The notes beneath the pieces were generated by a model. That model worked only from the letters and a program-made list of their open reading frames with translations, made no database searches and was not told the DNA's origin. From contig NZ_JAUTDR010000029.1 in the NCBI RefSeq assembly GCF_030649675.1, positions 1 through 39,720 on the forward strand: a stretch of DNA of 39,720 bases, read 5' to 3'. A program made the position numbers and the translations under genes. Positions 12,193-39,720 of this stretch are shown here, one piece after another; position 1 is the first letter of the stretch; the number at the start of each line of letters is the position of its first letter. The stretch is from Haliea sp. E1-2-M8 (GTDB lineage: Bacteria > Pseudomonadota > Gammaproteobacteria > Pseudomonadales > Halieaceae).

Positions 12193-12205
12193 AGGAGCGT
12201 ACCTT

Positions 12206-18536: not shown

Positions 18537-18785
18537 ACGAATAAAGAAGAGCCTATCTCTCCTAGGGCAAGCTGATGCCGAAACACTACAGAACCAACAA
18601 CTTATTATAATAGTATATTATATTATTATCATTGTATACTATTCACATTAAGCATGAGGTTACCGCCCACCCACATCATGAACAGGCACGTTGTGAGTAG
18701 GTGCGGTGTACGAGGCTTTCAATGAAGCTATCACTGACGCTGCCACAGTAAGGTCGGTCTCTCAATCCACCGTTGGAGCAAGCAC
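18537..18785. promoter_or_regulatory. AT-rich divergent intergenic region
   Basis: Lies between the leftward CBS gene and the rightward thiolase. A strikingly AT-rich patch at about 18599-18645 contains TTATAATAG and repeated TATTAT elements, well placed for the CBS promoter. GGAGC eight bases before the thiolase ATG is its likely ribosome-binding site. No gene is visible. Confidence 0.4.
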
Positions 18786-19935
18786 ATGGCTGACGCCTTC
18801 ATTGTCGATGCACTGAGAATCCGCAACGGGAGGAAAAACGGTTCGTTGGCGGCGAAGCATCCCGCCCACCTCGGCGCTGACGTCTTGAAAGCCATCGTCA
18901 AGCGCAGTGGCATCCCTGGTGATGAATACGATGATGTGATCTGCGGTTGCCTGGACACCATCGGGCCGCTCGCCAGTGATATACCGCGTACTTCCTGGCT
19001 TGCTGCGGGACTGTCGCAGACTGTTCCGGGTACCACCATCGACCGTCAGTGCGGCTCCTCGCAACAGGCCGTGCATTTCGCGACACAGGCAGTGATGTCC
19101 GGAACGATGGATGTGCTGATTGCCGGGGGAGTACAGACAATGTCACAGATTCCAATCTCATCGGCAGTTATCTGTGCAGAGGCGATGGGATTCACCGATC
19201 CATATTCTGGCTCAACAGGCTGGTTAGAACGGTACGGCACCGAACCGCCGACGCAATACAAGTCGGCACAGATGATTGCCGACAAATGGGGCTTCTCTCA
19301 CCGAAATCTCGAGGTCTATTCACTGGAGTCGCACAACCGGGCACTGGGTGCCATTGCCGAGGGCCGGTTCAAGCGCGAGATCATTGCGCTGGACGGCATC
19401 GACTGTGACGAAACACCGCGACATACCAGCCTGGAAGAAATGGCATCACTGGAGTACTTGTTTGGTCTCGACAAGGTCACTGCTGCAGCAGTCGAGTCAG
19501 ACCTGTGATGCCGCAAGTGCAATGTTGATCGTATCGGAAGCCGCCTTGAAACGTTACAACCTGACACCACGTGCACGTGTCCACCACATCAGTGTTCGCG
19601 CGGATGGTCCGATCTCGATGCATACGGCGCCCATAACTGCCACACAGGCCGCTCTGAAAAAAGCCGGTATAACATGGCAGGATATTGATCTCGTAGAAAT
19701 CAACGAAGCCTTTGCGTCTGTCGTGATGGCATGGCTGGTAGAAACCGGCTATCCGCCAGAAAAAACCAATGTAAACGGCGGCGCCATTGCTCTGGGGCAT
19801 CCGCTGGGCGCAACCGGAACCAAACTGATGACTACCTTGTTACACGAACTGGAGCGCACTGGCAGTCGCTATGGGTTACAAACGATGTGCGAAGGCGGGG
19901 GACCGGCCAACGTTACCATCATTGAGCGACTCTAG
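18786..19935 (+). pseudogene. Acetyl-CoA acetyltransferase (thiolase), single frameshift
   Basis: Thiolase of the type that cleaves or condenses beta-ketoacyl-CoA in fatty acid or steroid degradation. The first frame (to a TGA at 19506-19508) has the acyl-accepting Cys89 in TTIDRQCGSSQQAVHFA. The second frame begins in SSQTCDAASAMLIVSEAA and contains EINEAFAS, GGAIALGHPLGATG (catalytic His) and MCEGGGPANV (second catalytic Cys). One extra base near 19490, in GCAGCAGTCGAG, separates the halves; removing it restores a normal 380-residue protein. Everything else is intact, so this is either a recent mutation or a read error. It has no neighbouring beta-oxidation genes. Confidence 0.83.
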
Positions 19936-23223: not shown

Positions 23224-23570
23224 AGATGGAATACTACTTCCTCTCCGGTTACACAGCAAAATTGGCGGGAACGGAGCGCGATGTCACTGAGCCTGTGCCG
23301 ACGTTTTCAGCCTGTTTTGACACTGCGTTTCTGACCCTGCATCCCACTCAGTATGCTGAAGTATTGAATCAGCGTATGCGGAAGGCGCATGCCCGCCTTC
23401 CAGCTGTCCATTCCCCGATCACTAACTGGAGTGGATAGTGGCATTCTCGATCCTCAAAAAACCTACCAGAATCCAGATGGGTGGGATCGATAAGCTCACA
23501 AACTGGCTTCCATGTTCAGGGACAACTTTGTTCAGTTTACCGATACTGCTAGTGGGAGAGATCTGGTTGC
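23224..23570 (+). pseudogene. pckA: C-terminal remnant of phosphoenolpyruvate carboxykinase (ATP)
   Basis: Two stretches of PEP carboxykinase in the same orientation. The first reads [20 protein letters not shown] and [20 protein letters not shown], the well-conserved region before the C-terminal lobe. It degenerates after RMRKAHARL and stops at 23436-23438. The second, at about 23512, reads FRDNFVQFTDTASGRDLVAA, matching the extreme C-terminus (DNF-YTDTPAG--LVAAG). The sequence between them in the intact gene is missing. The enzyme would convert oxaloacetate to PEP; no active site remains. Confidence 0.65.
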
Positions 23571-23829
23571 AGCCGCAGACCGGGAATACGCGGCCCGTCT
23601 CGATGAAATGGTGGCTGTCGAGGCTAAAGCCGTGGGGGCAATTCGGCATGGTACCCCGGTAGACCACCGCCTGGCCGTAGTCCTCGCAGTCGGTCTCCAG
23701 CCCTTCCAGCTTGAACAGCCGGTAGGTGGCCGAGTTGACTACACAGTTGGAGACGATCACGTCGAAGCTGCCCGGTGCCAGGTCCAGCTCATCCAGTTTT
23801 TCGATGTAGCCCTCTAGCAGCTCAAAGAT
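23566..23829 (-). pseudogene. arsM: Arsenite methyltransferase (ArsM) remnant with internal deletion
   Basis: Reading leftward: EGYIEKLDELDLAPGSFDVI and VSNCVVN (post-SAM-binding strand with the first conserved Cys), joined directly to SATYRLFKLEGLETDCEDYG, then GQAVVYRGTMPNCPHGFSLD and HHFIETGRVFPVCG. In intact ArsM these two blocks lie roughly 80 residues apart, so there is an in-frame deletion. The SAM-binding glycine loop upstream and the C-terminal part are also absent. Beyond VCG the frame reads through the antisense of pckA. Confidence 0.7.
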
Positions 23830-24177
23830 ATGAAGGCGGACTTCGACCAACTCGACGTACAGATTGTCGCGGCATCCACCGACCCCGAGGACAAAGCCAG
23901 AAAGTTTGCAGCTGAATCGGGTCTGAACTTCGAGGTGGCCTATGGTCTGAGTATCGACCAGGCGCGGGAACTCGGGCTGTATATTTCTACCCGCATTGAT
24001 AGTACGGAGACTGACCAGCCTTTTGCTGAGCCAGGAATGTTTCTTATCCGCCCGGATGGCGGGCTACATTTCGCTGAGGTTGCCAGTGCGCCTTTCTGCC
24101 GGCCGGATCTGGAAATGATCAAGATGGGGGTGGATGTTATCCAGGGAAAGGATTATCCGGCTCGTGGCACTGGCTGA
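23830..24177 (+). pseudogene. C-terminal part of a peroxiredoxin-like (AhpC/TSA) protein
   Basis: 115 residues: QLDVQIVAASTDPEDKARKF, YGLSIDQARELGLYIS, FAEPGMFLIRPDGGLHFAEV and DYPARG, which match the C-terminal two thirds of peroxiredoxin-like AhpC/TSA-fold proteins. The N-terminal strand and the catalytic Cys segment (a PxxxxC or CPFC motif) are missing; upstream sequence belongs to the arsM remnant. Although an ATG opens the frame, no ribosome-binding site is visible and peroxidase activity cannot be expected. Confidence 0.65.
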
Positions 24178-24183
24178 CCAGCC

Positions 24184-25299
24184 CTAATCCGGCGCCCCGG
24201 CGAGAGTTGAATAGTCGGTATAGCCACGCTCATCGCCCCCATAAAAGGTGCTTTCGTCCCATTCGTTGAGCTGCGCGCCGACGCGGAGGCGTTCCGGAAG
24301 GTCGGGGTTGGCAATGAAGGGACGGCCGAAGGTCACCAGATCGGTTTTGCCGGCGGCCATGCGTTCACGAGCCTCGTCGGCAGTGTAGTCACCGTTGGCG
24401 ATATAGGCACGCGAGAATCCTTTCTGGATGGCCTCAATCACTGCGTCGGGACGGCCAGAGACGTGATTGCCCTGGAAGGAATCCTCAACTACCTCAATAA
24501 AGGCGATCCCGAAAGCGTCAAGTCTTCTGGCGAAGGCGCCGAAAGTTGCTACCGGATCGGCATCTTCCATGGCGTTGAAACTCCCGGTGGGACTGACCCG
24601 TACGCCGACGCGATCCGCGCCCCAGACCTCCACTACCGCCTCGACCACCGCCAATGGCAGACGGAGGCGATTGTCCAGCGAGCCGCCATAGGCGTCGTCG
24701 CGATGGTTGCTGCAGCTTCGCAGGAACTGGTCCAGCAGGTAACCGTTGGCGGCGTGAACCTCGACCCCGTCGAAGCCGGCGCGCTTGGCGTTCTTGGCTC
24801 CCTGGCGGAACTGCTCGACTATGTCGGGCATCTCCTCGAGCGTCAACGCCCGTGGCGTCGGAATCTGGACCATGCCGGAGTCGGCGCTGACGTAAGTCTC
24901 GGCGCCTTCCGGTTTGATGGCAGAGGGCGCCACAGGCGCATTGCCGTCGGGCTGCAGGTCCGGGTGCGAGATGCGCCCAACGTGCCAAAGCTGCAGGATG
25001 ATGCGGCCGCCCTCCTCGTGCACTGCGTCGGTCACGCGACGCCAGCCATCGATCTGCGCCTCGGAGTAGATGCCCGGGGTAAAGGCGTAACCCTTGCCCT
25101 GGGGCGAGACCTGAGTCGCCTCGGAGATGATCAGCCCGGCACCGGCACGCTGACGGTAGTATTCCACATTCATGTCGTTCGGAATATCTCCGGGCTGTGT
25201 GGCCCGCGAGCGCGTCAGCGGCGCCATCAAAACCCGGTTGGGGAGTGTCAGGTCCCCGAGGACAAAGGGTTTGAACAGAATATCGTCTTGCTCGGTCAT
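24184..25299 (-). CDS. nemA: Old yellow enzyme family alkene/N-ethylmaleimide reductase
   Basis: FMN-dependent reductase that uses NADPH to reduce activated C=C bonds, nitroesters or maleimides. It is a TIM barrel of 371 residues, full length. Visible motifs are FKPFVLGDLTLPNRVLMAPL (FMN-binding start), LWHVGRISH, the substrate-activating His/Asn pair in EVHAANGYLLDQFLR, and the phosphate-binding VTFGRPFIANPDLPERL. The catalytic Tyr is probably in DDAYGGSLDNR-adjacent sequence. AAAGGAG lies before the ATG. It is intact and monocistronic in appearance; the neighbours on both sides are damaged or unusual. Confidence 0.9.
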   Translation of the reverse strand: MTEQDDILFKPFVLGDLTLPNRVLMAPLTRSRATQPGDIPNDMNVEYYRQRAGAGLIISEATQVSPQGKGYAFTPGIYSEAQIDGWRRVTDAVHEEGGRIILQLWHVGRISHPDLQPDGNAPVAPSAIKPEGAETYVSADSGMVQIPTPRALTLEEMPDIVEQFRQGAKNAKRAGFDGVEVHAANGYLLDQFLRSCSNHRDDAYGGSLDNRLRLPLAVVEAVVEVWGADRVGVRVSPTGSFNAMEDADPVATFGAFARRLDAFGIAFIEVVEDSFQGNHVSGRPDAVIEAIQKGFSRAYIANGDYTADEARERMAAGKTDLVTFGRPFIANPDLPERLRVGAQLNEWDESTFYGGDERGYTDYSTLAGAPD

Positions 25300-25390
25300 T
25301 GATTTCTCCTTTAATCGGGTAGGCTTCGGGTGGCTGGCAGGTCGCGTCGCCAGCCGACCGGGCCGCAGGCCAGGCCGCGCGCCACAGCCT

Positions 25391-26209
25391 TCAGCGAGCC
25401 GCCGTTGCGGTTTTCTGCTGCAGCTCCCTGGCCTGCTGCAGGTGCATCGTGACCATCTTGCGAGTCTTGTTCAGGTGGTTTCGGACTTCCTCGTTGTCGG
25501 TCATCGCGAGGCGCTCATCGATCATGTTCTGGCCGTTGGAGTGCGCCTTGACCGCGAAATCAATGTACGCACGTCCGAACGCATCGCCATCAAGCAACAC
25601 GATTTCGGCGAGCGCAGCGGCGAGCTTGTCTTTCGCCGCGCGGACGCGCCCGGTCACGACCGGCGTCACATTGTTTTTCATGCCGACTTCGACGGTCGCT
25701 TTGACGTGCTTGCCATGCGACTCGGGCATCATGCGGGCATAGGCCAGAATAGCCTCGTCGACCTTCTTGTTCTTGGCAATCATGGCGGCGTGGACCTTGT
25801 CCATATCGCCGGCGATCAACAGGGCGAGCGTTTCGGAGTCCGGGTCCGCTGACTCGCCATTTGCGTCCTCTGGCCTGGGTGCGCCAGGAATCGAGACGGT
25901 GTCGGTGTCGGCTGCCACCTTGAGGGCGGGCGGCTCACACTGCAGTCCCGAAGTGATGGCAGGACTCTCGGCCGTGGTGCGCGCCATCACCGCTTCGCCA
26001 AACTCCTTGCGCGCTTGCTGGACATTCTTCTTGCCCTCGATCACCTCATGCGCGAGGTGTAGCGTCAGGACGTTGTTGCTCTCGAGATCGCACCGTGCGG
26101 ACAACTCACCGCCTACGCGATAGATCGTGGTGGTGCGGTCGAATGCGAGCACTTCGTCCGCCTTGTCGGGCGGCACATCGTAGCTGATCGTGTGCTGGAG
26201 GTAGTCCAT
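25391..26209 (-). CDS. DUF4142-domain protein with an unusual N-terminal extension
   Basis: The C-terminal 160 residues are a DUF4142 four-helix unit (KVDEAILAYARMMPESHGKH; LDGDAFGRAYIDFAVKAHS; RKMVTMHLQQARELQQ), typical of periplasmic proteins. The first 100 residues (HTISYDVPPDKADEVLAFD; SARCDLESNNVLTLHLAHE) belong to something else that I do not recognise. The ATG at 26209 has no ribosome-binding site and no signal peptide. An ATG at 26307 with a strong AGGAGAAAGAACT leader and a signal-like start (MTKLKPAIGALVA) sits in another frame and stops after 19 codons. The frame at 26209 stays open well upstream. The gene is probably a deletion fusion or frameshifted product. Confidence 0.6.
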   Translation of the reverse strand: MDYLQHTISYDVPPDKADEVLAFDRTTTIYRVGGELSARCDLESNNVLTLHLAHEVIEGKKNVQQARKEFGEAVMARTTAESPAITSGLQCEPPALKVAADTDTVSIPGAPRPEDANGESADPDSETLALLIAGDMDKVHAAMIAKNKKVDEAILAYARMMPESHGKHVKATVEVGMKNNVTPVVTGRVRAAKDKLAAALAEIVLLDGDAFGRAYIDFAVKAHSNGQNMIDERLAMTDNEEVRNHLNKTRKMVTMHLQQARELQQKTATAAR

Positions 26210-26528
26210 GTGAACGATCGGGAAGTGGTGCGGCAGCTCCTCGCGAGTCAGCAGGATACGCTTGAAGGGGCCACAAGCGCGCCAATAGCTGGTTTCAGCT
26301 TGGTCATAGTTCTTTCTCCTGAGGTTCTGGTAGGTGTATATGAAGCAGGAGAACCATTAAAGCTCTGGTAGGGGTATGTCGTCGGTGGGTTTCCGAACAT
26401 AGCATCGGGCATGAGTTCAAGAGGTGGCATGATGAAACTCTCTTACTCTGTGCGCTGACGAATATGTTGGCAAACGCACGGATCGCCTGGCTTGATGAGT
26501 GAACAATGGATGCAGTCAGGAGATGAGC

Positions 26529-27902
26529 ATGCCAGACCAGATCGCACCGCAAAACACCGCCAAAGCCGCACTCCGGTCCGTAGTGGCATTGCCAGCCATG
26601 CTTGTCTTGCTCACAGCCTGCGGAGACCATGCACGGTTGCCTGCGGAAGCCGGGACCGGCGCTGATCCTGTATTGCTGCAGCCCAACCCCACCCTGATTC
26701 CCACCATCGAGATCGCGCCGGCGGTCGGATGGACAGACGGTGCTACTCCGACCCCGGCCGCGGACCTGGAGGTGACTGCCTTTGCCACGGGCCTGGACCA
26801 CCCGCGCTGGCTGTACGTCCTGCCCAATGGCGACGTGCTGGTCGCCGAGACCAACGCGCCACCGGGAAAAAGCGGAATCGACGGCATCAAGGGCTGGGTA
26901 ATGAAACGGGTGATGAAACGCGCCGGCGCCGCGGTACCGAGCGCCAATCGCATCACCCTCCTGCGCGATACCGATGGCGACGGCAAGGCCGAATTCCGCA
27001 GCGTGTTTCTCCAGGGCCTGCATTCGCCTTTCGGCATGGCGCTGGTCGGAAACACCTTATACGTGGCCAACGCCAATGCATTGCTGAAAGTGCCCTATCA
27101 GACCGGCGACACAAGCATCACCGGAGCCCCTGCCAAGGTTACGGATCTGCCCGGCATGGGCGACGAGTTGAACCATCACTGGACCAAGAGCCTGCTCGCC
27201 AGCGCCGATGGCGCCCGCCTGTATGTGGGCGTCGGCTCCAACAGCAATATCGGTGAGAACGGCATGCAGGTCGAGCACATGCGCGCGGCGATACTTGAGG
27301 TTGATCCTGCCACCGGCACTACGCGGATCTTCGCTTCAGGCCTGCGCAACCCGGTCGGCCTGGACTGGGAACCGCACACAGGCGCGCTGTGGGCGGTTGT
27401 CAACGAACGCGACGAACTCGGCAGCGATCTGGTGCCCGATTACCTGACCTCGGTCCGCCGGGACGCTTTCTACGGCTGGCCCTACAGCTATTACGGCCAG
27501 CACGTCGATGAGCGCGTGAGCCCGCAACGGCCCGAACTGGTGGCTAGCGCAGTTTCACCTGATTTCGCCCTAGGCGCGCACGTAGCACCCCTGGGTCTGG
27601 CCTTCAACAACAGCGGCGTGGCCGGCCTTGGCGAGGGCGCGTTCGTCGGCCTCCATGGTTCCTGGAACCGGCAACCCTTGAATGGCTATGAAGTCGTCTT
27701 TGTACCGTTCACCGGCGGCCGGCCGACTGGTTCGATACAGGTGGTGCTGTCCGGCTTCGTGGACACGGACGGCAATGCCCGTGGGCGGCCCGTAGGGGTG
27801 GCATTGGATGGACGTGGAGGTCTGCTGGTAGCCGATGACGTCGGCAACTCGGTATGGCGTGTAACGCCGGCGCGCGAACGCGAGGCAAACCGATGGAATT
27901 GA
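26529..27902 (+). CDS. Sorbosone dehydrogenase/PQQ-type glucose dehydrogenase-like lipoprotein
   Basis: A six-bladed beta-propeller of the sugar/sorbosone dehydrogenase family (PQQ-dependent in characterised members), exported as a lipoprotein: the signal ends in LVLLTACGD with lipid on the Cys. Propeller repeats are seen in [53 protein letters not shown] and [22 protein letters not shown] at 26529 fits AGGAG six bases away; a GTG at 26499 would lengthen the signal needlessly. It gives 457 residues. Its last 10 bases overlap the flavodoxin-type reductase gene, so the two are probably translated together. The substrate is unknown. Confidence 0.83.
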
Positions 27903-28639
27903 ATGAACGACAAACCGCACTTTGCGACCAAAACGACAACGATTTTTCAGATCTCAGGGCCGTTTTTTTCAATTGTACCCTGAAGCTTCCCGATCAGGAA
28001 TCGCATACCGCGCTGCTGATGGGCGCATCTGCCGAGATCATGCGCCGGAACGGTGTTATCGTTGACGACATGCGCGGCACCGCCCACCGCATCGCCTTCG
28101 GTGTCCAGCCCGACATGCGCGAGCACGGCTGGGAATACGACGACTGGCCAGACCTGTGGCAGCGGATCGAGGCCGCCGACATTCTGGTGCTTGGCACGCC
28201 GATCTGGCTGGGCGAGCAATCCTCGGTCTGCCGACTGCTGATTGAACGCCTGTACGCCATGTCGGGACGTCTGAATGTCAAAGGACAGTCCATCTTTTAT
28301 GGCAAGACCGGGGGTGTCGTGGTCACCGGTAACGAGGACGGAGCAAAGCATGTGGCAATGAATGTACTCTATTCACTCTCGCATCTGGGCTACCTGATTC
28401 CACCGCAAGCAGACTGCGGCTGGCTTGGCGAAGCCGGACCGGGCCCGAGCTATGGCGACGATGGAGCGGGCCTCGACAATGAATTCACCCAGCGCAACAC
28501 GACAATCATGAGCTGGAATCTGCTGCATGTGGCGCGGATGCTTAAAGACGCCGGCGGCCTTCCCAATCACGGCAACGACCGCAAGGCGTGGTCAGCTGGT
28601 TGCCGGTTCGATTACGAAAATCCCGAACACCGAAGCTGA
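27893..28639 (+). CDS. NADPH-dependent FMN reductase/flavodoxin-fold protein
   Basis: 248 residues of flavodoxin-like fold that bind FMN. The first strand is [20 protein letters not shown] (phosphate loop with Ser/Thr), followed by [20 protein letters not shown] and [20 protein letters not shown], typical of the NADPH-dependent FMN reductase family. The C-terminal part ends in [14 protein letters not shown]. The ATG at 27893 overlaps the propeller gene, with GAGG a few bases before it. Its probable role is a flavin or quinone reductase supplying or taking electrons near the periplasmic dehydrogenase; this pairing is inference. It converges on the haloacid dehalogenase gene with 14 bases between. 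Confidence 0.82.
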
Positions 28640-28653
28640 GCAGATCAGCGGCT

Positions 28654-29352
28654 TTAAACCTTTAGCCGTTGAACTGCCAGATCCACCGCATCGACTAGGT
28701 TGGCAACCTGGTGGTCAGGGCTATCCATCAGGGGATGGTAGAGCGACTCCTGGCGTTGAATCCAGATGCCATGAAATCCGGCGCGGATAGCGCCGTGGAT
28801 ATCCCAGGCATGAGCCGCCACCAGCAGTGCATTTTCCGGGGCACAGGAGTATTTCATTGCCGCTTGCTGGTAAAGAGCTGCTTGCGGTTTCCAGACTCTG
28901 AAGTCCTCCACCGATACGATATCGTCAACCAGGTGTTCGATGCCGTTGTCCCGAACCAGCTTCTCTGTATTGACCCTGGATCCATTGGTAAGCAGAACGG
29001 CCTGGCAAGCCGAAGGCTTGAGTTTTTCAAGTGCGGGTTTGACATCCCCGTGAGCAGGGAGCTGGGAGAAGGCGGACAGGATATCCTTCAGCGTTCCTTC
29101 ATCGGCCTCGTGGCCACGGCTGTGAAGCAGGACCTTCAGCGTGCCTTTGGCGATTTCCGGAAAGGTGTGAAACACACCGCTGGCGGAGAGAGCGAAGGCA
29201 TCTCTAAGCAGCTGGGCGAAGAACAGCCGGTCCGTGCCGGGGGGCAGATTGAGCTCCGTCAGTTTTTCTTCCAGCGGGGACAGGGAAAAAACAGTTTCCA
29301 CGACATCGAAAAATACAATACGTGTTTCTGGTTTTGGGGGTTGCTGGGACAT
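28654..29352 (-). CDS. Haloacid dehalogenase type II (HAD superfamily)
   Basis: Hydrolase of the L-2-haloacid dehalogenase group. Motif I is VFFDVVETVFSLSPL with the nucleophilic Asp, although the usual DxxGT is DVVET. Motif II is VLLTNGSR (Thr/Ser and Asn), motif III is the Lys in RVWKPQAALYQQA, and motif IV is LLVAAHAWDIHGAIRAG. The halide-cradle Arg region is plausible. ATG at 29352 is chosen over 29415 because GGTGGA precedes it by six bases. 232 residues is normal. It may act on a haloacid or simply be a phosphatase-like HAD; the AHAWD motif favours the dehalogenase type. Confidence 0.84.
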   Translation of the reverse strand: MSQQPPKPETRIVFFDVVETVFSLSPLEEKLTELNLPPGTDRLFFAQLLRDAFALSASGVFHTFPEIAKGTLKVLLHSRGHEADEGTLKDILSAFSQLPAHGDVKPALEKLKPSACQAVLLTNGSRVNTEKLVRDNGIEHLVDDIVSVEDFRVWKPQAALYQQAAMKYSCAPENALLVAAHAWDIHGAIRAGFHGIWIQRQESLYHPLMDSPDHQVANLVDAVDLAVQRLKV

Positions 29353-29463
29353 CAGGTTCCACCTTCCTGCATCGGAATGCAGAACGTCTGCATTCCCGCT
29401 TTTTTGACCAGGCAATGCGTTACCAGTTCATCCAGAACCTCTGCGATCCGCCGGCGGGTATTG

Positions 29464-29880
29464 TCAGAATGGTGATCGAGTACGATCTCGGTCGTCGACA
29501 GTCCAGCGAGTATCCAGATCCCTCAACATGTAGACCGCAATACAGGCAGCCAGCATCGGCCAGGCGGCAAAGAAAAGCAGGTTATTAAAGGCATCAAGAT
29601 ACTGCTGCCACGAAGACAGTGTAGAAATACTGTGCAGCGCAAGAATGATTCCGTAGCTGTACCGCTTCAGAAAGCCTGCCACAAACGCCAGCACTACCAG
29701 CAGCTGCAGGAAGCCAATAATCATGAAAGTGGCGCCTGACAGCCCGCTCAGGCCGTAGAAATTCTCGAACACGGCGCCGCTGTGCTGCGGATTTATGAAC
29801 TTGTCCAAAGTCCACATGATCATCACGATGAAAACCCCAAGACGCAGTAGCAGCAGGGCATTGGCAATGCGTTGTTCCAT
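29464..29880 (-). CDS. DoxX-like four-helix membrane protein
   Basis: 138 residues with four transmembrane segments: LLLLRLGVFIVMIMWTLDKF, TFMIIGFLQLLVVLAFVAGF, YSYGIILALHSISTLSSW and LLFFAAWPMLAACIAVYML. The arrangement, with a Lys/Asp-containing first loop, resembles DoxX/YphA membrane proteins, which are linked to thiol or redox stress in some bacteria. ATG at 29880 follows TAGGTG at a short spacing. It is upstream of the HAD gene on the same strand with 111 bases between, so a common transcript is possible. Confidence 0.7.
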   Translation of the reverse strand: MEQRIANALLLLRLGVFIVMIMWTLDKFINPQHSGAVFENFYGLSGLSGATFMIIGFLQLLVVLAFVAGFLKRYSYGIILALHSISTLSSWQQYLDAFNNLLFFAAWPMLAACIAVYMLRDLDTRWTVDDRDRTRSPF

Positions 29881-29886
29881 AATCAC

Positions 29887-30310
29887 CTATCTTATGAGAT
29901 TCCCGTGGCGTCAGCGTAAGAGGTTTTTCTGGTTCGTTATCACTTACGCGACATTGATTCCGAAACGCGGCGTTTGTTACACAGTCTGAACATTTTCATA
30001 GAGACAACAGGAATATCAAGACCATAAACATCGGTTTGTAACGAATATCCGCTAGATGCATCTATTTGAGGTGTTCAGTTGCTGACGCTTCGCCAGCCGT
30101 CCAGCGACCAATCACAGTTGATCGGGGACGCTGAGTGCCGCGCGCATGTTGAGCGGGATCGGGCGGATTCTGGGATTGTAGTGCGAGCTGCGTGATGTTG
30201 AATCGGGGATGGCGGGGGTCGTGATCGGATCTACCTAGCGTTTATTCTTTGCCGGGCAGGTTGGGGGGTAAGTGTGACTTTCGTTGTAAGCTTTTGATTT
30301 TTAGGGCTAT
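29887..30310. other. Chromosomal flank before the mobile element, no gene seen
   Basis: About 420 bp of mixed composition between the DoxX-like gene and the attachment-like hairpin. No frame of useful length has a ribosome-binding site or a recognisable motif, and no tRNA is present. It probably marks chromosomal sequence next to the insertion point. Confidence 0.45.
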
Positions 30311-30333
30311 TTGGCGGAGAGAGAGTCCGCCAA
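30311..30333. repeat. Candidate attachment core: perfect inverted repeat resembling a tRNA-Ser 3' end
   Basis: TTGGCGGA and TCCGCCAA form a perfect 8-bp stem around GAGAGAG. Read on the minus strand, CTCTCTCTCCGCCA (30325-30312) matches the 3' end of bacterial serine tRNAs including CCA. It sits 165 bases before a P4-type integrase gene, the expected place for the att core. No rest of a tRNA follows on the right, so if real this is the distal copy and the tRNA lies at the other end of the element. Confidence 0.45.
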
Positions 30334-30459
30334 TTCTAGGTAACTGCCAGCCACTACAAATCGCTCAAAGTTCTGCTATTAAGCCAACGAAACCGCCACA
30401 ATAGCAACAAAACGTTAACTAGCCATAACAACTAATACGGCCTATTATCAGCGCAAAGG

Positions 30460-30479
30460 TGTACCCTGAAATGTACCCT
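30460..30479 (+). repeat. Direct TGTACCCT repeats upstream of the integrase gene
   Basis: TGTACCCT occurs at 30460-30467 and again at 30472-30479, a 12-bp period, immediately before the integrase start region. Placement suggests arm-type integrase binding sites or an autoregulatory operator. Confidence 0.4.
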
Positions 30480-30498
30480 AATGATAGGACTGGCCGAA

Positions 30499-31758
30499 AT
30501 GAGTAAGCAAATCAAAGCAACCACTGCCCGAGGAGTTTCTAGCCTGCTGAAGACCGGGGCGCCTGGCCTCTACTCGTCCGGGAAGGGCCTTTACCTGAAG
30601 GTGAACGGCATCAATTCTGGGTCATGGATCTTTCGATACAAGATAAACGGCAAAACGGGAAAAATCGGCCTTGGCTCGAGCGATACGGTTGGTCTTGCCG
30701 AGGCGGCCCTGCTAGCCGCTGAGCAGCGCAAACTGACAGCCAAAGGGGTAGACCCCAAAGCGCATCGTGAAGCAGTAGAGAAGCAAGCAGAGGCACAGGG
30801 CGTGACCTTTGATATGGTGGCGGCCGATTACATCGCAGCCCAACGCTCAAGCTGGAAAAACGCCAAGCACGCTCAGCAATGGGAGAATACCCTCGCTACC
30901 TACGCCAGCCCAATCATTGGCAATCTGGCGCCGGCCGATGTAACAACCGAGCAAGTTCTGGAGATCCTGCAACCGATATGGAATACCAAGAACGAGACGG
31001 CCGACCGCGTGCGTAATCGTATTGAAAAGGTCTTGAATGCGGCCAAGGCTCGCAAGCTGCGCACCGGCGAAAACGTGGCGGCATGGCGTGGTCACCTGGA
31101 GCTTCTGCTAGCCAAGCGTACAACCACAGACCGCAAGCACCATCCTGCCTTGCCCTGGGATCGGATGAGTGCTTTCTGGTCTGAGCTGAGTAAGAAGACC
31201 TCCGCAAGCGCCCAAGCCCTACAACTGGCCATTCTAACAGGGCTTCGCACTGGCGAGATATTAGGCGCGTACTGGTCTGAATTCGATCTAGAGCGCCGCA
31301 TCTGGACGGTTCCCGCCCGTCGAATGAAGATCAAAACCAAGGATCATCGGGTGCCCTTGAGCGGCGCCGCATTGAATTTGCTAGAAACCATTCCTCGCTC
31401 CAGCAGCGGACTTCTATTCGAGGGGCTCAAAGTAGGCAGGCCGATCAGCAACATGGCCATGCTAATGCTGGTGCGCGGCATGGATGAGACTCAGGCCGGT
31501 GGCTGGCGCGACAATCAGGGTAACATTATCACCCCTCACGGCTTTCGTTCGACTTTTCGGGACTGGGCGGCTGAGAATACCGCTTTTGAGAACATTGTTG
31601 TTGAACAGGCGCTGGCACATACCATCGCAAACCAAGCCGAAGCCGCATACCGGCGGGGTGACCTGCTTGAGCGGCGCCGAGAACTCATGGAGGCCTGGGC
31701 TAGGTATGTGACCATACCCACTGCATCCAACCTGGTGAGTTTCAAGCAAAACGTATAA
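30499..31758 (+). CDS. int: P4-type tyrosine integrase
   Basis: Site-specific recombinase that inserts and excises the element. The N-terminal DUF4102-type arm-binding domain (SSGKGLYLKVNGINSGSWIF) is followed by a core-binding SAM-like region (GVTFDMVAADYIAAQRSSWK) and the catalytic domain with R in ILTGLRTGEILG, a Lys in KIKTKDHRVPLS, HxxR in TPHGFRSTFRDWA, a His in EQALAHTI and the nucleophilic Tyr in AEAAYRRGDLLERR. ATG at 30499 has AGGA nine bases upstream; an ATG at 30481 lies directly behind the TGTACCCT repeats without a ribosome-binding site. It is 419 residues, full length. It is the left-end gene of the island and reads into it. Confidence 0.93.
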   Translation: MSKQIKATTARGVSSLLKTGAPGLYSSGKGLYLKVNGINSGSWIFRYKINGKTGKIGLGSSDTVGLAEAALLAAEQRKLTAKGVDPKAHREAVEKQAEAQGVTFDMVAADYIAAQRSSWKNAKHAQQWENTLATYASPIIGNLAPADVTTEQVLEILQPIWNTKNETADRVRNRIEKVLNAAKARKLRTGENVAAWRGHLELLLAKRTTTDRKHHPALPWDRMSAFWSELSKKTSASAQALQLAILTGLRTGEILGAYWSEFDLERRIWTVPARRMKIKTKDHRVPLSGAALNLLETIPRSSSGLLFEGLKVGRPISNMAMLMLVRGMDETQAGGWRDNQGNIITPHGFRSTFRDWAAENTAFENIVVEQALAHTIANQAEAAYRRGDLLERRRELMEAWARYVTIPTASNLVSFKQNV

Positions 31759-31766
31759 CGATTTTC

Positions 31767-31820
31767 GGCTGGCCTAGCTCGACGGAGCGAAAAGCGGGAT
31801 TCCCACCCGCCTGGCCAGCC
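31767..31820 (+). ncRNA. 54-nt three-way-junction element in the leader after the integrase
   Basis: An outer 8-bp stem GGCTGGCC/GGCCAGCC (31767-31774, 31813-31820) encloses two hairpins: GCTC-GACG-GAGC (31777-31788) and GCGGG-7 nt loop-CCCGC (31794-31810). All pairs are Watson-Crick. It looks like a tRNA lacking a T arm, or a structured leader of the next gene, 36 bases downstream. Whether it acts as RNA or DNA is unknown. Confidence 0.4.
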
Positions 31821-31856
31821 ACTCTATTCAACGGGAAAACCTGGGGAGGGTGGTCG

Positions 31857-32606
31857 ATGGCGAAAATTGATCGGGTAGAAGACCTGCCGGATTGGTTCGA
31901 TTTGGATAAATACCAACTTTGTAAATCATTCGCGGCAGTTGACTGGCTGAGCAATCTGGAGACTCGGAGGTCTATTTTCGAACTGATTGCTCTCGGGGAT
32001 GGCGAGGCGACTAAGCGGGCGGAGTACCTTCGCGACGATCCAATTGACAACCTCTTATACTGCTTCGGTGGCGGCCCGGCTAACCCAGTAAGGTCGCTAC
32101 GTTACGCCGATCTAGCGACTCGCGCCTCGTTCGACATCTTACTGGACCCCTTTCTCTCAAAAAACAATGGGCTGTGGGCCAAGATAATAGAACATATGAC
32201 TACTGGAAACTTCTTTCCTAGCAGTGAACTGGGCACCCCGATTGGTAGTGACTGCCTCGATACATACCCTATTTTGGTAGACCTGCGCGCCTCTGACTCA
32301 ATACTAATTGATGCCTTCGCAACATGGCTCCGAGATGCTCGTTCGGAAATTGCCATTGACAGCAAGCGGGAGCGTCCGGCCTACAAGTATTGGGCCAGGT
32401 ATGGCCTGCTCCCATATTTGGATCTACGAATCTGGTCGAAGGAAACCGGACATTCAATTCCGCATCACGTGATGGCGGAAGCTGTAGGGTATCGTAAAGG
32501 AGGTGACAGCTTCCGAAAGACGGTTCCGCCCCTGGCCAAACGCCTGATGGCAGACCTCAGCAACTTGGAGGCGCTAGCAGCAATCGAGGGGAACCCGGAA
32601 GAATAG
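31857..32606 (+). CDS. DUF6387-like protein of unknown function
   Basis: 249 residues with the pattern of DUF6387 proteins found beside integrases in genomic islands: an N-terminal DLPDWFDLDKYQLCKSFAAV and WLSNLETRR, a central hydrophobic-poor region, and a C-terminal helical part (YWARYGLLPYLDLRIWSKET) ending in KTVPPLAKRLMADL. The C-terminal GHSIPHHVMAEAVGYRKGGD could be a helix-turn-helix. GGGAGG precedes the ATG at a good spacing. It follows the integrase on the same strand, separated by the structured leader. The function is not known; a role in island maintenance or defence is inference. Confidence 0.6.
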   Translation: MAKIDRVEDLPDWFDLDKYQLCKSFAAVDWLSNLETRRSIFELIALGDGEATKRAEYLRDDPIDNLLYCFGGGPANPVRSLRYADLATRASFDILLDPFLSKNNGLWAKIIEHMTTGNFFPSSELGTPIGSDCLDTYPILVDLRASDSILIDAFATWLRDARSEIAIDSKRERPAYKYWARYGLLPYLDLRIWSKETGHSIPHHVMAEAVGYRKGGDSFRKTVPPLAKRLMADLSNLEALAAIEGNPEE

Positions 32607-32722
32607 GAGTCCTGAGTCTTTCCGGAAAAACTTAGACCAGAAAGCTCGGCATGGTTTCATCGCCATTTGATCTGTTAAATCTGTAGCCATTGTTATCAAC
32701 CGCCACGAAGGAGGCGCAGAAC

Positions 32723-32917
32723 ATGGCTACCAACCCCCACGCAGCACCACCAGCCGCCCTGACCCGCCCGAAGCAAACAGCTGATCACTTTCAAATCAGC
32801 ATCATGACTTTGCATCGTTGGCGCCACCAGACCGGATTCCCGCAACCGATGAAACGTGGCGCCGTTGTTCTTTACGACATTCCTGCCATAACAGCATGGT
32901 TGAAGGCCGAGGTATGA
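32723..32917 (+). CDS. alpA: AlpA-family DNA-binding regulator/excisionase
   Basis: 64 residues with a MerR-like winged helix: QTADHFQISIMTLHRWRHQT, GFPQPMKRGAVVLYDIPAIT and AWLKAEV. This is the AlpA/excisionase-like layout that controls integrase and excision in P4-type elements and PICIs. A strong AAGGAGG precedes the ATG at 32723; an upstream TTG/ATG-less extension from 32690 lacks support. Its TGA overlaps the next small gene in ATGA, so translation is coupled. Confidence 0.82.
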   Translation: MATNPHAAPPAALTRPKQTADHFQISIMTLHRWRHQTGFPQPMKRGAVVLYDIPAITAWLKAEV

Positions 32918-33069
32918 ACGGATCGTTCTTCAAGTGTCTTCGCGATGACTCGCGGCTAACGAGGAGACAGGTCCGTTTCCGGCTGGCGACAGTTGCAACT
33001 GGCATTCGTAGTGGACTCGAGGTGGCGCCAGAATCAGAACTGTGGCCCTCCAGAAGGAAGCCGGTCTGA
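32914..33069 (+). CDS. Small basic protein coupled to alpA
   Basis: 51 residues (NGSFFKCLRDDSRLTRRQVR and IRSGLEVAPESELW are visible). The ATG overlaps the alpA stop as ATGA, and the stop lies one base before the ATG of the next gene, so it sits tightly in an operon. Its Arg-rich middle may bind nucleic acid. The family is unknown. Confidence 0.5.
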   Translation: MNGSFFKCLRDDSRLTRRQVRFRLATVATGIRSGLEVAPESELWPSRRKPV

Positions 33070-33070
33070 G

Positions 33071-33901
33071 ATGTCAGCAAGTACCATATTGCTGCACCAA
33101 ATACTGAAACGGGGCGACAGCGTTTCGATTGTAGGGGGACGGCTATGCGTTGAACCAGCGAGCGGCGCACCCGTCCCGCCTGATTGGCTGAAGGCGCATT
33201 CCCGCGAAATCTTGACGGAAATATTGCAGCGAACCGGCCAGGACGGCTTCTTCTATGAGAATTTCAGCACTGGCTGCTATGGCAAATGCTCAGCGCCAGG
33301 CGTGACATTGCAGTTCAGTACCATCTACCAGTCGGACGCATACGCCGTGTTCAATGCATCCCTGAAGTATGACCGCGGCTCGAAGAAGGGTAAGCGTTAC
33401 CCCGGCAAACAATTCCGGGTAGGTCAGCGCAGCGCCTTCTTGAAGTTCTGGAAGCGGTGCGGCCTGCCGCTACGGTATAGGTCTGATCTGCACGAGCAAA
33501 TGAATCAGCTTCAGGGACTCGCGTTCCAGGGCAGCCGATCAAATGAGCGAATCGCAAAGGACACATTGCAGCCAGTGACCATGACTGCCGACACCATACG
33601 CCGCGCATTTGTTTCCGGGGAATCTCCGGGAAGGTTCCGGGAAGATTCCGGGAAGGTTCCGGGAAGTGGTTCCGGGAAGGAATCAGCCGAAACCCTTGCC
33701 CCTGCTGACTTGCAGCCGAATCCAACTACGGGCACAGCAAACTACGGTAATACGGTCATAAGGGAGTGCGGTACACGGGGACCCTCCCCTTATCCATCTA
33801 TACCCCCTGAAGACCAAACACATGAGGAATGGCTCGCAGACTATGATCTGCGGGAATACATCACCATGAAGCACCAAACCAGCAATCCGGCTTGCGACTA
33901 A
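33071..33901 (+). CDS. Island protein with TubC-like N-terminus; gene contains a palindrome array
   Basis: 276 residues. The first 45 (GDSVSIVGGRLCVEPASG, then PPDWLKAHSREILTEIL) resemble the TubC N-terminal docking-like fold that heads many phage and plasmid primase-region proteins. A middle Lys/Arg-rich stretch (KYDRGSKKGKRYPGKQFRVG; SAFLKFWKRC) may bind DNA. The C-terminal third is low-complexity Gly/Ser/Pro because it is encoded by an array of TTCCGGGAA repeats at 33613-33678. GGAAG lies ten bases before the ATG. The position after alpA and the in-gene repeats fit a replication-initiation or origin-region protein, but no primase or helicase motif is present, so this is inference. Confidence 0.55.
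   Translation: MSASTILLHQILKRGDSVSIVGGRLCVEPASGAPVPPDWLKAHSREILTEILQRTGQDGFFYENFSTGCYGKCSAPGVTLQFSTIYQSDAYAVFNASLKYDRGSKKGKRYPGKQFRVGQRSAFLKFWKRCGLPLRYRSDLHEQMNQLQGLAFQGSRSNERIAKDTLQPVTMTADTIRRAFVSGESPGRFREDSGKVPGSGSGKESAETLAPADLQPNPTTGTANYGNTVIRECGTRGPSPYPSIPPEDQTHEEWLADYDLREYITMKHQTSNPACD
33613..33678 (+). repeat. Six-copy array of palindromic TTCCGGGAA boxes at 11-bp period (iteron-like)
   Basis: Core copies begin at 33613 (TTCCGGGGAA), 33624 (CTCCGGGAA), 33635, 33646, 33657 and 33670 (each TTCCGGGAA). Spacing is 11, 11, 11, 11 and 13 bp. Each perfect box is an inverted repeat TTCC-G-GGAA. Because 11 is not a multiple of three, the array passes through all reading frames and cannot be a protein repeat. 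Confidence 0.85.
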
Positions 33902-33913
33902 GAGGACCACACC

Positions 33914-34225
33914 ATGGCACAGCCCTACACCACCCGACTGGAACATTCTGAATTGACCCGGGATGAGCGCCTACAAGTAGTTAACTACTACGACGTACTC
34001 TCGCCAGAGGATGACCCAACGGCGCGCTATAAAAATAGCCCACCGCGAGTCTACGGGCCTGAGACGGGACTCACAAAAGAAGGTCACGGCAAGGGTATTC
34101 GAGTTCTCGTCCACCAGGATATAACTGTGGTCGAGTGTGAGCGACTACTACGCGAGCTACTTCGTAGTGTTGAAACTGCTGCTAGTATAGAAATTGAGGA
34201 TGATGTGCCTTGGGGAGCCGCCTGA
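33914..34225 (+). CDS. Hypothetical island protein
   Basis: 103 residues following AGAGGA nine bases before the ATG. Visible are an N-terminal SELTRDERLQVVNYYDVLSP, a central KEGHGKGIRVLVHQDITVVE and a final amphipathic helix with an acidic end (CERLLRELLRSVETA; IEIEDDVPWG). There is no signal peptide or known motif. It is 12 bases downstream of the TubC-like gene and is part of the same rightward operon. The family is not recognised. Confidence 0.55.
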   Translation: MAQPYTTRLEHSELTRDERLQVVNYYDVLSPEDDPTARYKNSPPRVYGPETGLTKEGHGKGIRVLVHQDITVVECERLLRELLRSVETAASIEIEDDVPWGAA

Positions 34226-34258
34226 GGAGCTGGCTGCAGCTGAAATGGAGGGTTTGTG

Positions 34259-34381
34259 ATGCAGCGTTATCGCCCTAGCCTCCAACAGCTTTTCATTTCC
34301 GGTGAACAGCCCATGCAGCAACTGGTGGTCTTTGACGAAGCCGAGCAAACACTGATCCAGATTCAGGGACAACCAGGATGA
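34259..34381 (+). CDS. 40-residue island protein
   Basis: Short gene with GGAGG seven bases before its ATG. It encodes RYRPSLQQLFISGEQPMQQL followed by VVFDEAEQTLIQIQG, a strand-rich small protein. It sits between two operon genes with matching spacing, which supports expression. The role is unknown. Confidence 0.5.
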   Translation: MQRYRPSLQQLFISGEQPMQQLVVFDEAEQTLIQIQGQPG

Positions 34382-34484
34382 TAATCACCCTGGCTTCCTC
34401 TTCCCGAATTGGATCAAGGTAGTTGATGGTTCGACCGAGGCCCAGCACTAGGAAAGTTAAATGCATGATTGCAAGGAGTAGCAC

Positions 34485-35036
34485 ATGCCAAACGATACGA
34501 AAAAGCTGACGCCGCGACAGGAAGTCTTCGTGATGGAATATTTGACTGATCTGAACGCCACACAGGCGGCGATCCGGGCCGGGTATAGCCCAAAGTACGC
34601 CGGAACCAATGCAGACAAGCTACGAAAGAATACTAATGTCGCCGCAGCCATTGCTGAAGCCAAGGCGGAGAGGTCAATCCGTACGCAGATCACCGCCGAC
34701 TGGCTCCTACAGCATCTGGCCGATCAGGTCGTGGCAGACCTTGCCGATATTTATCATGCCGATACGGGCACCCTTAAGCCCATCCACGAGTGGCCGCTGA
34801 TCTGGCGCCAGGGTCTTGTCCTAGGCGTTGATGTCCAGCGAATCGGCAACGGGGATGGCGCTTTTGGTGAGGTGATCAAGATAAGGCTAGCAGACAGAAC
34901 CCGCCTCCAGGAGCTTGTCGGTCGTCACGTCGACGTCGAGGCCTGGAAGGACAACCACAAGGTGGAGGTTGTTGAAAGCGATTTGGTCGAGAAGCTTAAT
35001 GCGGCCCTCAAGCGCGCTGGCGTCAAATCAGGGTGA
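34485..35036 (+). CDS. terS: Terminase small subunit
   Basis: Recognises the DNA packaging site for a phage terminase. The N-terminal helix-turn-helix pattern of the Terminase_2 type is clear: KLTPRQEVFVMEYLTDLNAT, QAAIRAGYSPKYAG and NVAAAIAEAKAERS, followed by a central region (DWLLQHLADQVVADLADIYH) and a basic C-terminal helix that would contact the large subunit. AAGGAG precedes the ATG. At 183 residues it is full length. No large terminase, portal or capsid gene follows, so it would have to work with a helper phage's large subunit, as in phage satellites. Confidence 0.85.
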   Translation: MPNDTKKLTPRQEVFVMEYLTDLNATQAAIRAGYSPKYAGTNADKLRKNTNVAAAIAEAKAERSIRTQITADWLLQHLADQVVADLADIYHADTGTLKPIHEWPLIWRQGLVLGVDVQRIGNGDGAFGEVIKIRLADRTRLQELVGRHVDVEAWKDNHKVEVVESDLVEKLNAALKRAGVKSG

Positions 35037-36188: not shown

Positions 36189-36313
36189 TTCGATGGTTCT
36201 GTATACGGGCCATACAACCCGTGTTCCACTGGGCGGCATTTGAAGTGGCTCCAGCGCCGCGTGAATTTCGCTCACGTTGCGCGCCTTCACGATAGCGAGT
36301 ATAAACGCCGTTT

Positions 36314-36541
36314 CTAATTCAGTGCTCGCCGTTTCGGAGCCTGGCATCGACCACGGCCGATGTCGACAATCTCCGCAGGCCCGGCCGGCGCTATTTGATA
36401 CCAGCCGCACGGGCTGACCAGCGTGATACCACCCGCATCGCTACTGATATACCTGGAGCCGTCTGCGTAGATTTCATACACCTGTGTCTCAGAGACCAAT
36501 TGCAATACTGGAGTGGCAATACGATGCGGTTCACCAGACAT
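36314..36541 (-). CDS. Hypothetical protein, second gene of a leftward pair
   Basis: 75 residues, supported by GAGGA six bases before the ATG and by the 12-base gap to the preceding stop. The sequence is strand-rich (VYEIYADGSRYISSDAGGIT; SPCGWYQIAPAGPAE) and looks like a real folded small protein rather than a chance frame. No family recognised. It opposes the surrounding cargo genes. Confidence 0.45.
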   Translation of the reverse strand: MSGEPHRIATPVLQLVSETQVYEIYADGSRYISSDAGGITLVSPCGWYQIAPAGPAEIVDIGRGRCQAPKRRALN

Positions 36542-36553
36542 GCGTTTCCTCGC

Positions 36554-36745
36554 TCATGCTCCCGAAAGATCGTCAATGTCCTTCGGCAAGTCTGACCTGG
36601 CGCCGCCCGAGATACACCTATAAGCACGCAGCAAATCCGTACAGGCGTGTGTCTGCGTATGGCCAAATCCGCGTACGGTGATACTGGAACAATGGGTCTT
36701 AGCCACCCACTCGATTCCGTTGAATATGATTGTCACTGAGAGCAT
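36554..36745 (-). CDS. Hypothetical protein, first gene of a leftward pair
   Basis: 63 residues from ATG at 36745 (LSVTIIFNGIEWVAKTHCSS, then HACTDLLRAYRCISGGA). There is no strong ribosome-binding site, and starts up to 36784 are possible. The stop is followed at once by the ribosome-binding site of the next gene, indicating a two-gene unit. It resembles small phage-island proteins in composition; the function is unknown. Confidence 0.42.
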   Translation of the reverse strand: MLSVTIIFNGIEWVAKTHCSSITVRGFGHTQTHACTDLLRAYRCISGGARSDLPKDIDDLSGA

Positions 36746-36978
36746 GGGCTGAGTATAGACCGTGCGACATGGAGACCGCTCCATCAACCTTCGGGATGGC
36801 CGCTTTGTCCTAGCAGCGGACCTCGGTCAATTTCCCGCCAACTAGCGAACTGGAGCATATAGTCTACGCTTGTACTCATCGCTCTCATCAAGGGCCGTCA
36901 TAGTTAACGGCCTGGGTGTGAGTTGTCGTACCTGAATGGCAAACCGATAACTTCTCCAAAACAAACGGGATTAATATC

Positions 36979-37617: not shown

Positions 37618-37916
37618 AGTTTAAGGTCAGGTCGATGTTGGACAGGAGATCGAATGCAAGTTCCTCGTCGACCCGCTGAACAACATCGCCTGACCTATAT
37701 CTACCCCGAGTCTCTTTAGTCTCTGAATGTGGTAAGTCGCCGGGCCGTTCAAATAGTAATTCACTATATGTCCGCGATGAGGTGGTAGCTGCCTCTCTAC
37801 GGCAGGGCATCCACCGGCTGCTGTTGGCCGGAAGCCGATCCAGGCCCCACTCAATACGACCGGCCGCTATGAGGTGAAAGCAGGAATCCGGCAGATACCA
37901 ATCCTGCTCACGTAAA
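37618..37916. other. 299-bp stretch with no supported gene
   Basis: Leftward frames here (for example NYYLNGPATYHIQRLKRLGV) loosely recall phage helix-turn-helix proteins but have no start with a ribosome-binding site. It may be a decayed piece linked to the recombinase remnant next to it. Confidence 0.3.
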
Positions 37917-38018
37917 CTCATTAAGAATGTCGTACAGCTTCTGCCGACTGAACCCCAGTTCTTTCGCCACCGCCGCCTTCACTATTCCCTCGGAGACCAT
38001 CTTTACCGCTCGCCGAGC
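37917..38018 (-). pseudogene. Remnant of a serine recombinase C-terminal helix-turn-helix
   Basis: Encodes RRAVKMVSEGIVKAAVAKEL and GFSRQKLYDILNEF, nearly the same as the C-terminal DNA-binding domain of the recombinase at 39.2 kb. About four of five bases match between 37917-38018 and 39212-39313, in the same orientation. The catalytic domain is absent. The two copies flank one gene. Confidence 0.75.
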
Positions 38019-38140
38019 CGGTGGGCCCAGAGCGATTGCGCGGAGTGGCAGCGTCCGGTTATCTTCGTTGAATTTTGGGTAAGTTTCGATAAGATGCTGA
38101 TTGTAGGCTGGAGATGATTTTACCATTGGCTTCTATGTTC

Positions 38141-39202: not shown

Positions 39203-39720
39203 TCACCCAAGCTCATCAAGGATGTCGTAAAGCTTCTGCCGGCTGAACCCCAACTGCTTGGCCACCGCAGCCTTCGGTATGCCCTCGGATACCATCTTCA
39301 CAGCCCGCTCACGTTCAGCCTGGGAGATTGATGGCTTCCTACCCATCTTCACCCCTCGCGCCATTGCGGCCCGCCTGCCCTCATTGGTGCGCTCCAGGAT
39401 GCGCTCCCGCTCGGCCTGGGCCACCGCGGCCAGGATGGTGGTGACCATCTTGCCCATGGAGCCCTCGGTGCTGATTCCGTCGTCCAAAAACTGGACGGTG
39501 ATGCCGCGCTCATGAAGGTCTTCAATGATGCGAATCATGTCAGCGGTATTGCGACCGAGACGGTCGAGCTTGGTAATGACGATATGGTCGCCCTGGCGGG
39601 CCTTGGTCATCATCAGTTCAAGGCCCTGTCGCTTGTCGTTCTTGCCGCTGGCCTTATCGGTGAACAGGAAGTCCTTGTGATCCCTCACCCCGGCAGCCTT
39701 CAGCTTGTCGAGTTGCGTGG
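39203..39720 (-). CDS. Serine recombinase (resolvase/invertase family), 5' end outside the window
   Basis: Runs off the right edge; the frame is open to 39720 and reads QLDKLKAAGVRDHKDFLFTD, so the N-terminal strand with the catalytic Ser lies beyond the window. Present are VITKLDRLGRNTADMIRIIE (the conserved Arg pair of the active site), ERGITVQFLDDGISTEGSMG, the dimer helix AQAERERILERTNEGRRAAM, ARGVKMGRKP and the C-terminal HTH GFSRQKLYDILDE. It belongs to the small Tn3-resolvase/Hin-type group. It may be part of a nested transposon within the island. A diverged copy of its 3' end lies 1.3 kb to the left. Confidence 0.9.
   Translation of the reverse strand, partial: TQLDKLKAAGVRDHKDFLFTDKASGKNDKRQGLELMMTKARQGDHIVITKLDRLGRNTADMIRIIEDLHERGITVQFLDDGISTEGSMGKMVTTILAAVAQAERERILERTNEGRRAAMARGVKMGRKPSISQAERERAVKMVSEGIPKAAVAKQLGFSRQKLYDILDELG

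Follow-up and report, generated by a model that had tools for sequence, protein, structure and literature searches.

Phage-inducible chromosomal islands (PICIs) of Gram-negative bacteria have been described as carrying int, an AlpA regulator, pri-rep, an origin 3' of rep in which two sets of iterons surround an AT-rich stretch and, sometimes, terS, the gene of the terminase small subunit (PMC6092414). Phage-inducible chromosomal minimalist islands (PICMI), small satellites of marine origin, carry int, alpA, prim and defence cargo; their excision needs AlpA and the integrase, and the published search model treats co-located int, alpA and prim as mandatory (PMC10803314). In PLE of Vibrio cholerae, a satellite initiator without predicted primase or helicase activity binds repeats at the origin (PMC7145576). 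The mobilisable ICEKp258.2/EARL genomic islands list an AlpA gene beside a DUF6387 gene in an island with an integrase (PMC10763509). Here we describe a segment at 30.3-35.0 kb of a 39,720-nucleotide window from Haliea sp. E1-2-M8 (bases 1-39720 of a 53,449-bp contig; the draft genome is 98.8% complete). On balance, and with limited confidence, we read it as a working phage satellite that carries TerS, forms a new sub-type and belongs to a family of islands containing the gene p33071.

On the plus strand the segment encodes, in order, int, an int-alpA RNA, a DUF6387 protein, an AlpA-like protein, p33071, an open reading frame (ORF) of 103 amino acids (aa) and TerS (Table 1). The positions given in an initial annotation for int and the DUF6387, alpA-like, 33071 and terS genes were confirmed by ORFs, Pfam and PHROG; p33071 and the ORF at 33914, which it had placed outside the known PICI families, match nothing in Pfam or PHROG. 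The int-alpA RNA, placed by Rfam between int and the DUF6387 gene, had been overlooked. A 51-aa ORF at 32914 has no relative among the compared loci, and neither it nor the 40-aa ORF at 34259 is supported as a gene. The AlpA-like ORF had been listed as 32690-32917, with an ATG at 32723.

Like Gram-negative PICIs, the segment has an integrase at one end, a candidate AlpA/MerR-type regulator (a weak PHROG 66 match, 1.8e-5), one-way transcription and TerS, which some PICIs carry, and no gene for the terminase large subunit (TerL), portal, capsid or other structural proteins was seen (one TerL search; ten ORFs; a scaffold join at 39721) (PMC6092414). Unlike them, it shows no recognisable primase or pri-rep module (the six segment proteins scanned gave no such match in Pfam or PHROG), and the AT-rich stretch between two iteron sets was not seen in its repeat array and the next 100 bp (PMC6092414). 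With PICMI it shares the small size, the marine setting, the integrative nature and the order int, gene, AlpA, gene, replication gene and terminal defence cargo, but the primase is replaced by p33071 with an array inside the gene; the window has TerS where none is given for PICMI115, and PICMI adjoins fis, whereas the candidate core of the window element resembles tRNA-Ser instead (PMC10803314). From the mandatory int-alpA-prim set, int is present, alpA is weak and prim was not recognised in the window. The likeness to PLE, one by description, would lie in a satellite replication initiator without primase and in repeats at the origin (PMC7145576). The element falls outside PICMI and lacks one defining PICI module, yet resembles both. 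P4-like satellites carry an alpha primase-helicase, psu and sid, and none of these had a PHROG or Pfam match among the six proteins of the segment. The initial annotation had taken the gene order as the hallmark of PICIs; we do not retain this, because no primase was recognised, the AT-rich origin stretch was not seen, most p33071 loci are without TerS (11 of 13) and the DUF6387-AlpA pair is also found in the mobilisable ICEKp258.2, so that this pair is no proof of a satellite (PMC10763509). Unlike the window, in which none were noticed by eye, the ICEKp258.2/EARL islands carry TraD, relaxase and pilus genes (PMC10763509).

The evidence for a satellite begins with TerS, whose reading frame, like that of int, is intact. 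When the window's whole genome was searched with the main TerL family alone (phrog_2, which gives a signal in 11 of 14 control genomes), no convincing TerL came up; the three weak partial matches (best E-value 1.1e-7) were taken by eye for PhoH-like, DEAD-helicase and UvrD-like proteins. TerL, portal and capsid genes just beyond 39720 had been named as the mark of an ordinary prophage. No phage structural PHROGs were found in the ten ORFs scanned from 35.2 to ~51.8 kb, a range within which the scaffold join at 39721 lies, and, with the same qualification, neither TerL nor structural genes were found in line with TerS.

In the order as a whole, 21 of 390 genomes matched TerS, at 26 places. Of 20 such surroundings, six have a TerL identified by blast and ten more are followed by an ORF judged by eye to be TerL-like; no TerL was seen at three, namely the lone gene of genome G364, a place in G007 and, at a contig end, G316, and the count leaves L078 aside. 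In the window's own bacterial family, TerS matches occur in 6 of 140 genomes (8 places), and TerL was found beside TerS in none of the five judgeable loci (two in the window's genome and one each in G466, G426 and G867), those of G316 and G460 lying at contig ends and not being judgeable. The clearest orphan-TerS element is that of G426, which measures ~12.6 kb; int stands at one end, TerS sits close to the opposite one, and a search for att repeats yielded none. Its interior holds a primase-like piece, an O-like initiator, a DnaB-like helicase and two large unknown proteins, which are possible satellite-specific genes. At 10030-13499 of this locus (L130), ORFs of 630 aa (PHROG 10969) and 514 aa (86% identical to a G316 protein) stand directly before the orphan TerS. 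The window's genome has two TerS matches, the second being on contig C40 in an int element with int, a ParB-like gene, a D5-type primase/helicase gene and TerS in this order; the D5-type gene adjoins TerS on its upstream side, an order also seen in phages. No integrase was found in the examined stretch around the G466 TerS, and the lone TerS genes of G364 and G867 are possible scars.

p33071 places the segment in a wider group. Relatives were found in 10 of 390 genomes of the order (the window's own included), in one more genome, G630, out of the 369 searched from the class (around G630, the search at order level covered this genome only) and on one Microbulbifer contig. The total is 13 loci: L004, L028 to L037, L133 and the window itself. 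With the queries used, p33071 had no match in 50,697 phage records, 72,556 plasmid records or viral contigs, and a Pfam search of eight family members returned a single match (E 0.19). A phage tail-tip protein was the sole match in a profile search against solved structures (E 0.049) and was taken as chance; a single-sequence AlphaFold model was unusable (mean predicted local distance difference test score, pLDDT, 44.5).

A tyrosine integrase stands upstream in the same orientation in 10 of the 13 loci; that of L034 points the other way, none was seen in the examined stretch of L035, and L004 begins inside the gene. Direct repeats were sought around nine p33071 loci and L083. Accepted repeat ends were found in five of the nine and delimit islands of 4.6-12 kb: 8.0 kb at a tRNA-Leu, 12.0 kb at ssrA, 5.4 kb beside ssrA, 4.9 kb with a 14-bp repeat at the ssrA end, and 4.6 kb. 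L030, L032, L033 and L083 gave no repeats, a 14-mer of L034 was not counted, and no flanking repeat was found for L133. The L029 element contains IetAS, and L030, whose ends are not located, has a type II restriction match. In L028 and L029, p33071 is directly followed by isrK and C4 RNAs, the latter grouping with phage and P4-type immunity RNAs, and the int-alpA RNA recurs in the L031 and L037 elements. L029 shows a tandem island arrangement: just past the right repeat of its ssrA island, a broken second integrase is accompanied by an int-alpA RNA (17393-18814). No phage structural genes were recognised in the p33071 islands. Upstream of p33071, a winged-helix ORF is found in L028, L029, L031 and L036, above the cut-off in L031 only; no such gene was seen in the window. 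One genome contains two nearly identical copies, L036 and L037, in which the ORF is without its N-terminal domain while the array is kept. The window has the common trait of these islands, namely p33071 with sites at 0/11/22/33/44/57 downstream of a tyrosine integrase. The literature searched yielded no description of them, and we regard p33071 islands as a newly recognised family of small integrase islands, some with defence cargo.

The initial annotation had proposed looking for the same gene order elsewhere. In L133, from another bacterial family, int lies near tRNA-Leu(CAA) and is followed by p33071 and, 4 bp further, by a diverged TerS (PF03592 1.3e-18). This recurrence provides the best support for int-p33071-TerS as a putative working unit. 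A hidden Markov model (HMM) of 22 TerS proteins matched no other p33071 locus at E 0.01; its matches to the window and L133 are by construction, since both proteins are in the HMM.

The iteron-like repeats noted earlier within p33071 were confirmed, and their regularity exceeds the earlier description. Six 9-bp sites start at 33613, 33624, 33635, 33646, 33657 and 33670, spaced by 11, 11, 11, 11 and 13 bp, and none of 1000 synonymous or 1000 codon shuffles of the window gene scored as high. With the layout fixed from L028, and L004 outside the shuffle test, the layout is kept in 12 of 12 copies tested, each beating all 1000 codon shuffles and all but at most 1 in 1000 synonymous shuffles. The spacing is conserved and the motif varies between lineages: TTCCGGGAA in the window, TCCGGGTAA in L028, ACCCGACAA in L031, CTCCGATAA in L035 and a GCACA core in L133. 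Since 11 is not a multiple of three, a protein-level repeat does not explain the array. When 47 loci were scanned for the layout, the 12 highest best-per-locus scores (0.62-0.93) were those of the 12 p33071 loci; the best of the 35 loci without p33071, which include TerS/TerL prophages and other orphan-TerS elements, was 0.56, and shuffled loci reached 0.53. The array therefore goes with p33071 and not with TerS, which weakens its reading as a packaging site. It is not AT-rich (AT fraction 0.39, against 0.44 in the next 100 bp and 0.45 in the gene). A putative second cluster of TACG-type sites, alike in several relatives, lies ~45 bp after the array (33720-33790).

These features suggest that the array is a cis-acting site, most likely an origin. 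A real but lesser possibility, judged apart from the readings of the element as a whole, is that it binds a regulator or excision factor, or serves in packaging, instead of being an origin. An 11-bp phasing would suit any protein that binds one face of the DNA, the array of L036 and L037 survives the loss of the N-terminal domain, and a winged-helix ORF stands before p33071 in four loci, but the array tracks p33071 rather than TerS, and the window shows no winged-helix gene.

The satellite reading of the initial annotation is supported by the orphan, intact TerS, the lack of a convincing TerL in the one search, the order in L133 and the other TerL-less TerS elements (C40, G426 and G466), but not by a PICI hallmark order. 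The p33071 islands, small where ends were found, with int-alpA RNA, isrK/C4 RNAs and defence cargo in some, also support it, as do the excision of PICMI by AlpA and integrase (PMC10803314) and the primase-free initiator of PLE (PMC7145576). It is somewhat more likely than not that the segment is the integrase-proximal half of a satellite which moves in the particles of another phage. In such an element, a helper phage would raise the AlpA-like protein, which together with the integrase would excise the element at the tRNA-Ser-type core. An initiator, p33071 or a partner, would bind the six-site array, and because no primase was recognised, helper or host enzymes are proposed to replicate the circle. 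The island's TerS would then bring concatemers to the TerL and procapsid of the helper, and the genes past TerS would be cargo, possibly including a type I restriction system beyond the scaffold join. More tentatively, we propose a new gammaproteobacterial family of minimal satellites that would have no primase, an origin inside the ORF of a new initiator (six helically phased sites, with spacing fixed and sequence free in each lineage) and a helper-derived TerS slotted in behind.

Several observations weigh against the satellite. TerS was found in 2 of the 13 p33071 loci, the window and L133, and 11 show none, and the DUF6387-AlpA pairing is shared with a mobilisable island, ICEKp258.2 (PMC10763509). 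The alpA assignment held in part: the PHROG 66 family matched is 'excisionase and transcriptional regulator', PF05930 was not matched in the Pfam scan, and HTH_23 (E 0.004) stays under its cut-off. Some margins of the array are thin (L030 scores 91 against a shuffle maximum of 90, L033 97 against 93, and 1 in 1000 synonymous shuffles of L133 is as high), L030, L033 and L034 failed to beat shuffles in an earlier repeat test with free layout, and some loci that lack p33071 have repeats with a different period, such as 12 bp in L068 and 22 bp in L064. The TerL search rested on one family, phrog_2. The five orphans do not group in a TerS tree of 28 proteins (five label changes for five rows, with most forks open); this fits repeated pick-up of TerS, although the tree is poorly resolved, and a common satellite ancestry of the two TerS genes in the window's genome, which have 85% DNA identity over ~123 bp at their starts, was not borne out. 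The helper prophage that the initial annotation had called for was not found, nor was any sign of excision, attR or the right end of the element.

The same scarcity of TerS would suit an integrative defence island that is not a satellite, moves by its integrase and another route, and holds a captured TerS as cargo, perhaps as a decoy that disturbs the packaging of incoming phages. We consider this unlikely. It agrees with IetAS in L029, the type II restriction match in L030, the type I restriction genes further along the window's contig and the DUF6387-AlpA pair of ICEKp258.2 (PMC10763509), but int-p33071-TerS recurs in another family, the window's TerS is intact, and no relaxase or TraD was noticed on its contig, by eye only. 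That the segment is what is left of a prophage, with int, early genes and TerS retained and all that lay downstream gone, is improbable: TerL follows in 16 of the 20 order-level TerS places (6 by blast, 10 by eye), the lone TerS genes of G364 and G867 may be scars and the D5-type gene just before TerS on C40 is in a phage-like order, but p33071 is matchless in phage and plasmid records and viral contigs with the queries used, no structural genes were recognised in its islands, and the TerS and int frames are intact.

If the segment is a satellite, its left end plausibly lies at a tRNA-Ser-type attachment core left of int. The attachment-like core of the initial annotation is thus plausible and resembles tRNA-Ser(GCT), with an exact 14-mer of the C2 gene at 30312-30325; the E-value is 0.39 alone, and the partner attR was not found. 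Contig C2 holds the sole exact match in the genome to the 24-base pattern of the tRNA-Ser(GCT) end. Sequence that stands ~8 bp past tRNA-Ser(GCT) in the sister genome G437 stands ~185 bp past the tRNA in the window's genome, so that the C2 site looks like an old attachment scar. An empty-site comparison with G430, of the same genus, gave no attR: homology stops at 29988, beyond which the two genomes have different neighbours; on the window's own contig, nothing besides one 12-mer was found as a repeat flanking the element. In another genome of the genus, G420, an island of >17 kb stands at tRNA-Ser(GCT) (L156, 550-17700 oriented), with an integrase 45% identical to that of C40 and a D5-type primase relative. 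By eye it also has an AlpA-like ORF, cas genes and a repeat array, and is perhaps a satellite-like island with CRISPR cargo.

Table 1. Features of the window around the p33071 segment (positions in the window; E-values follow family accessions)
Feature	Position	Strand	Basis
Candidate attachment core, like the tRNA-Ser(GCT) 3' end in reverse complement	30299..30325	-	29-column 86% match to contig C2, E 0.39 alone
Candidate integrase arm-type repeats	30452..30479	-	Match to stretch just after C2 tRNA-Ser: 28 bp, 89%, E 0.008; putative function
int, tyrosine integrase with arm-binding domain	30481..31758	+	PF22022, PF13356, PF00589 (three Pfam integrase domains); PHROG 1 integrase
int-alpA RNA	31767..31834	+	RF02996, 66.7 bits (gathering 35.8)
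DUF6387 protein	31857..32606	+	PF19924 4.7e-27
AlpA-like small helix-turn-helix regulator/excisionase candidate	32723..32917	+	PHROG 66 1.8e-5; HTH_23 0.004
p33071, candidate replication-region gene	33071..33901	+	No Pfam or PHROG match; found in 13 loci in total
Six-site array in p33071, 9-bp sites at offsets 0, 11, 22, 33, 44, 57	33613..33678	+	
103-aa ORF	33914..34225	+	No match in Pfam, PHROGs, phages, viral contigs or compared loci
40-aa ORF from the initial annotation	34259		
terS, terminase small subunit, without terL	34485..35036	+	PF03592 1.5e-31; PHROG 51 8e-37
Possible cargo: 200-aa ORF, BamE-like ORF, unknown ORFs of 212 aa and 268 aa	35205..39004	+	Weak or no family matches; presumed members of the element
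Resolvase, broken by scaffold join	39203..39688	-	PF00239 3.3e-31

Downstream of TerS, inside the resolvase gene, contig position 39721 is a single N, after which the 101 bases before it (39620-39720) are repeated exactly. This is a scaffold join, and the sequence beyond it may therefore be misjoined; type I restriction genes lie past it, at ~43-49 kb of the contig. A DNA copy of the resolvase, 92% identical, is present on C40 beyond the other orphan TerS, and C40 has a similar X within a repeated ORF at ~4.4 kb. A short ORF (37908-38126) ends like the resolvase, and two small reverse ORFs (36304-36828) recur on C40 at 82-84% DNA identity in shuffled order. Upstream of the element, comparison with G430 by eye shows 24.1-29.4 kb inserted between an ORF matching methyltransferases and a DoxX-like gene; the methyltransferase-matching ORF looks shortened in the window (region 23422-29988).

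Integrative elements with an orphan TerS in the window's bacterial family would extend the range over which TerS-type satellites are known. An array with fixed spacing and free motif inside the gene predicts a matching binding protein in each lineage. In addition, the array layout offers a route to finding such islands without a primase, which the PICMI search model requires (PMC10803314).

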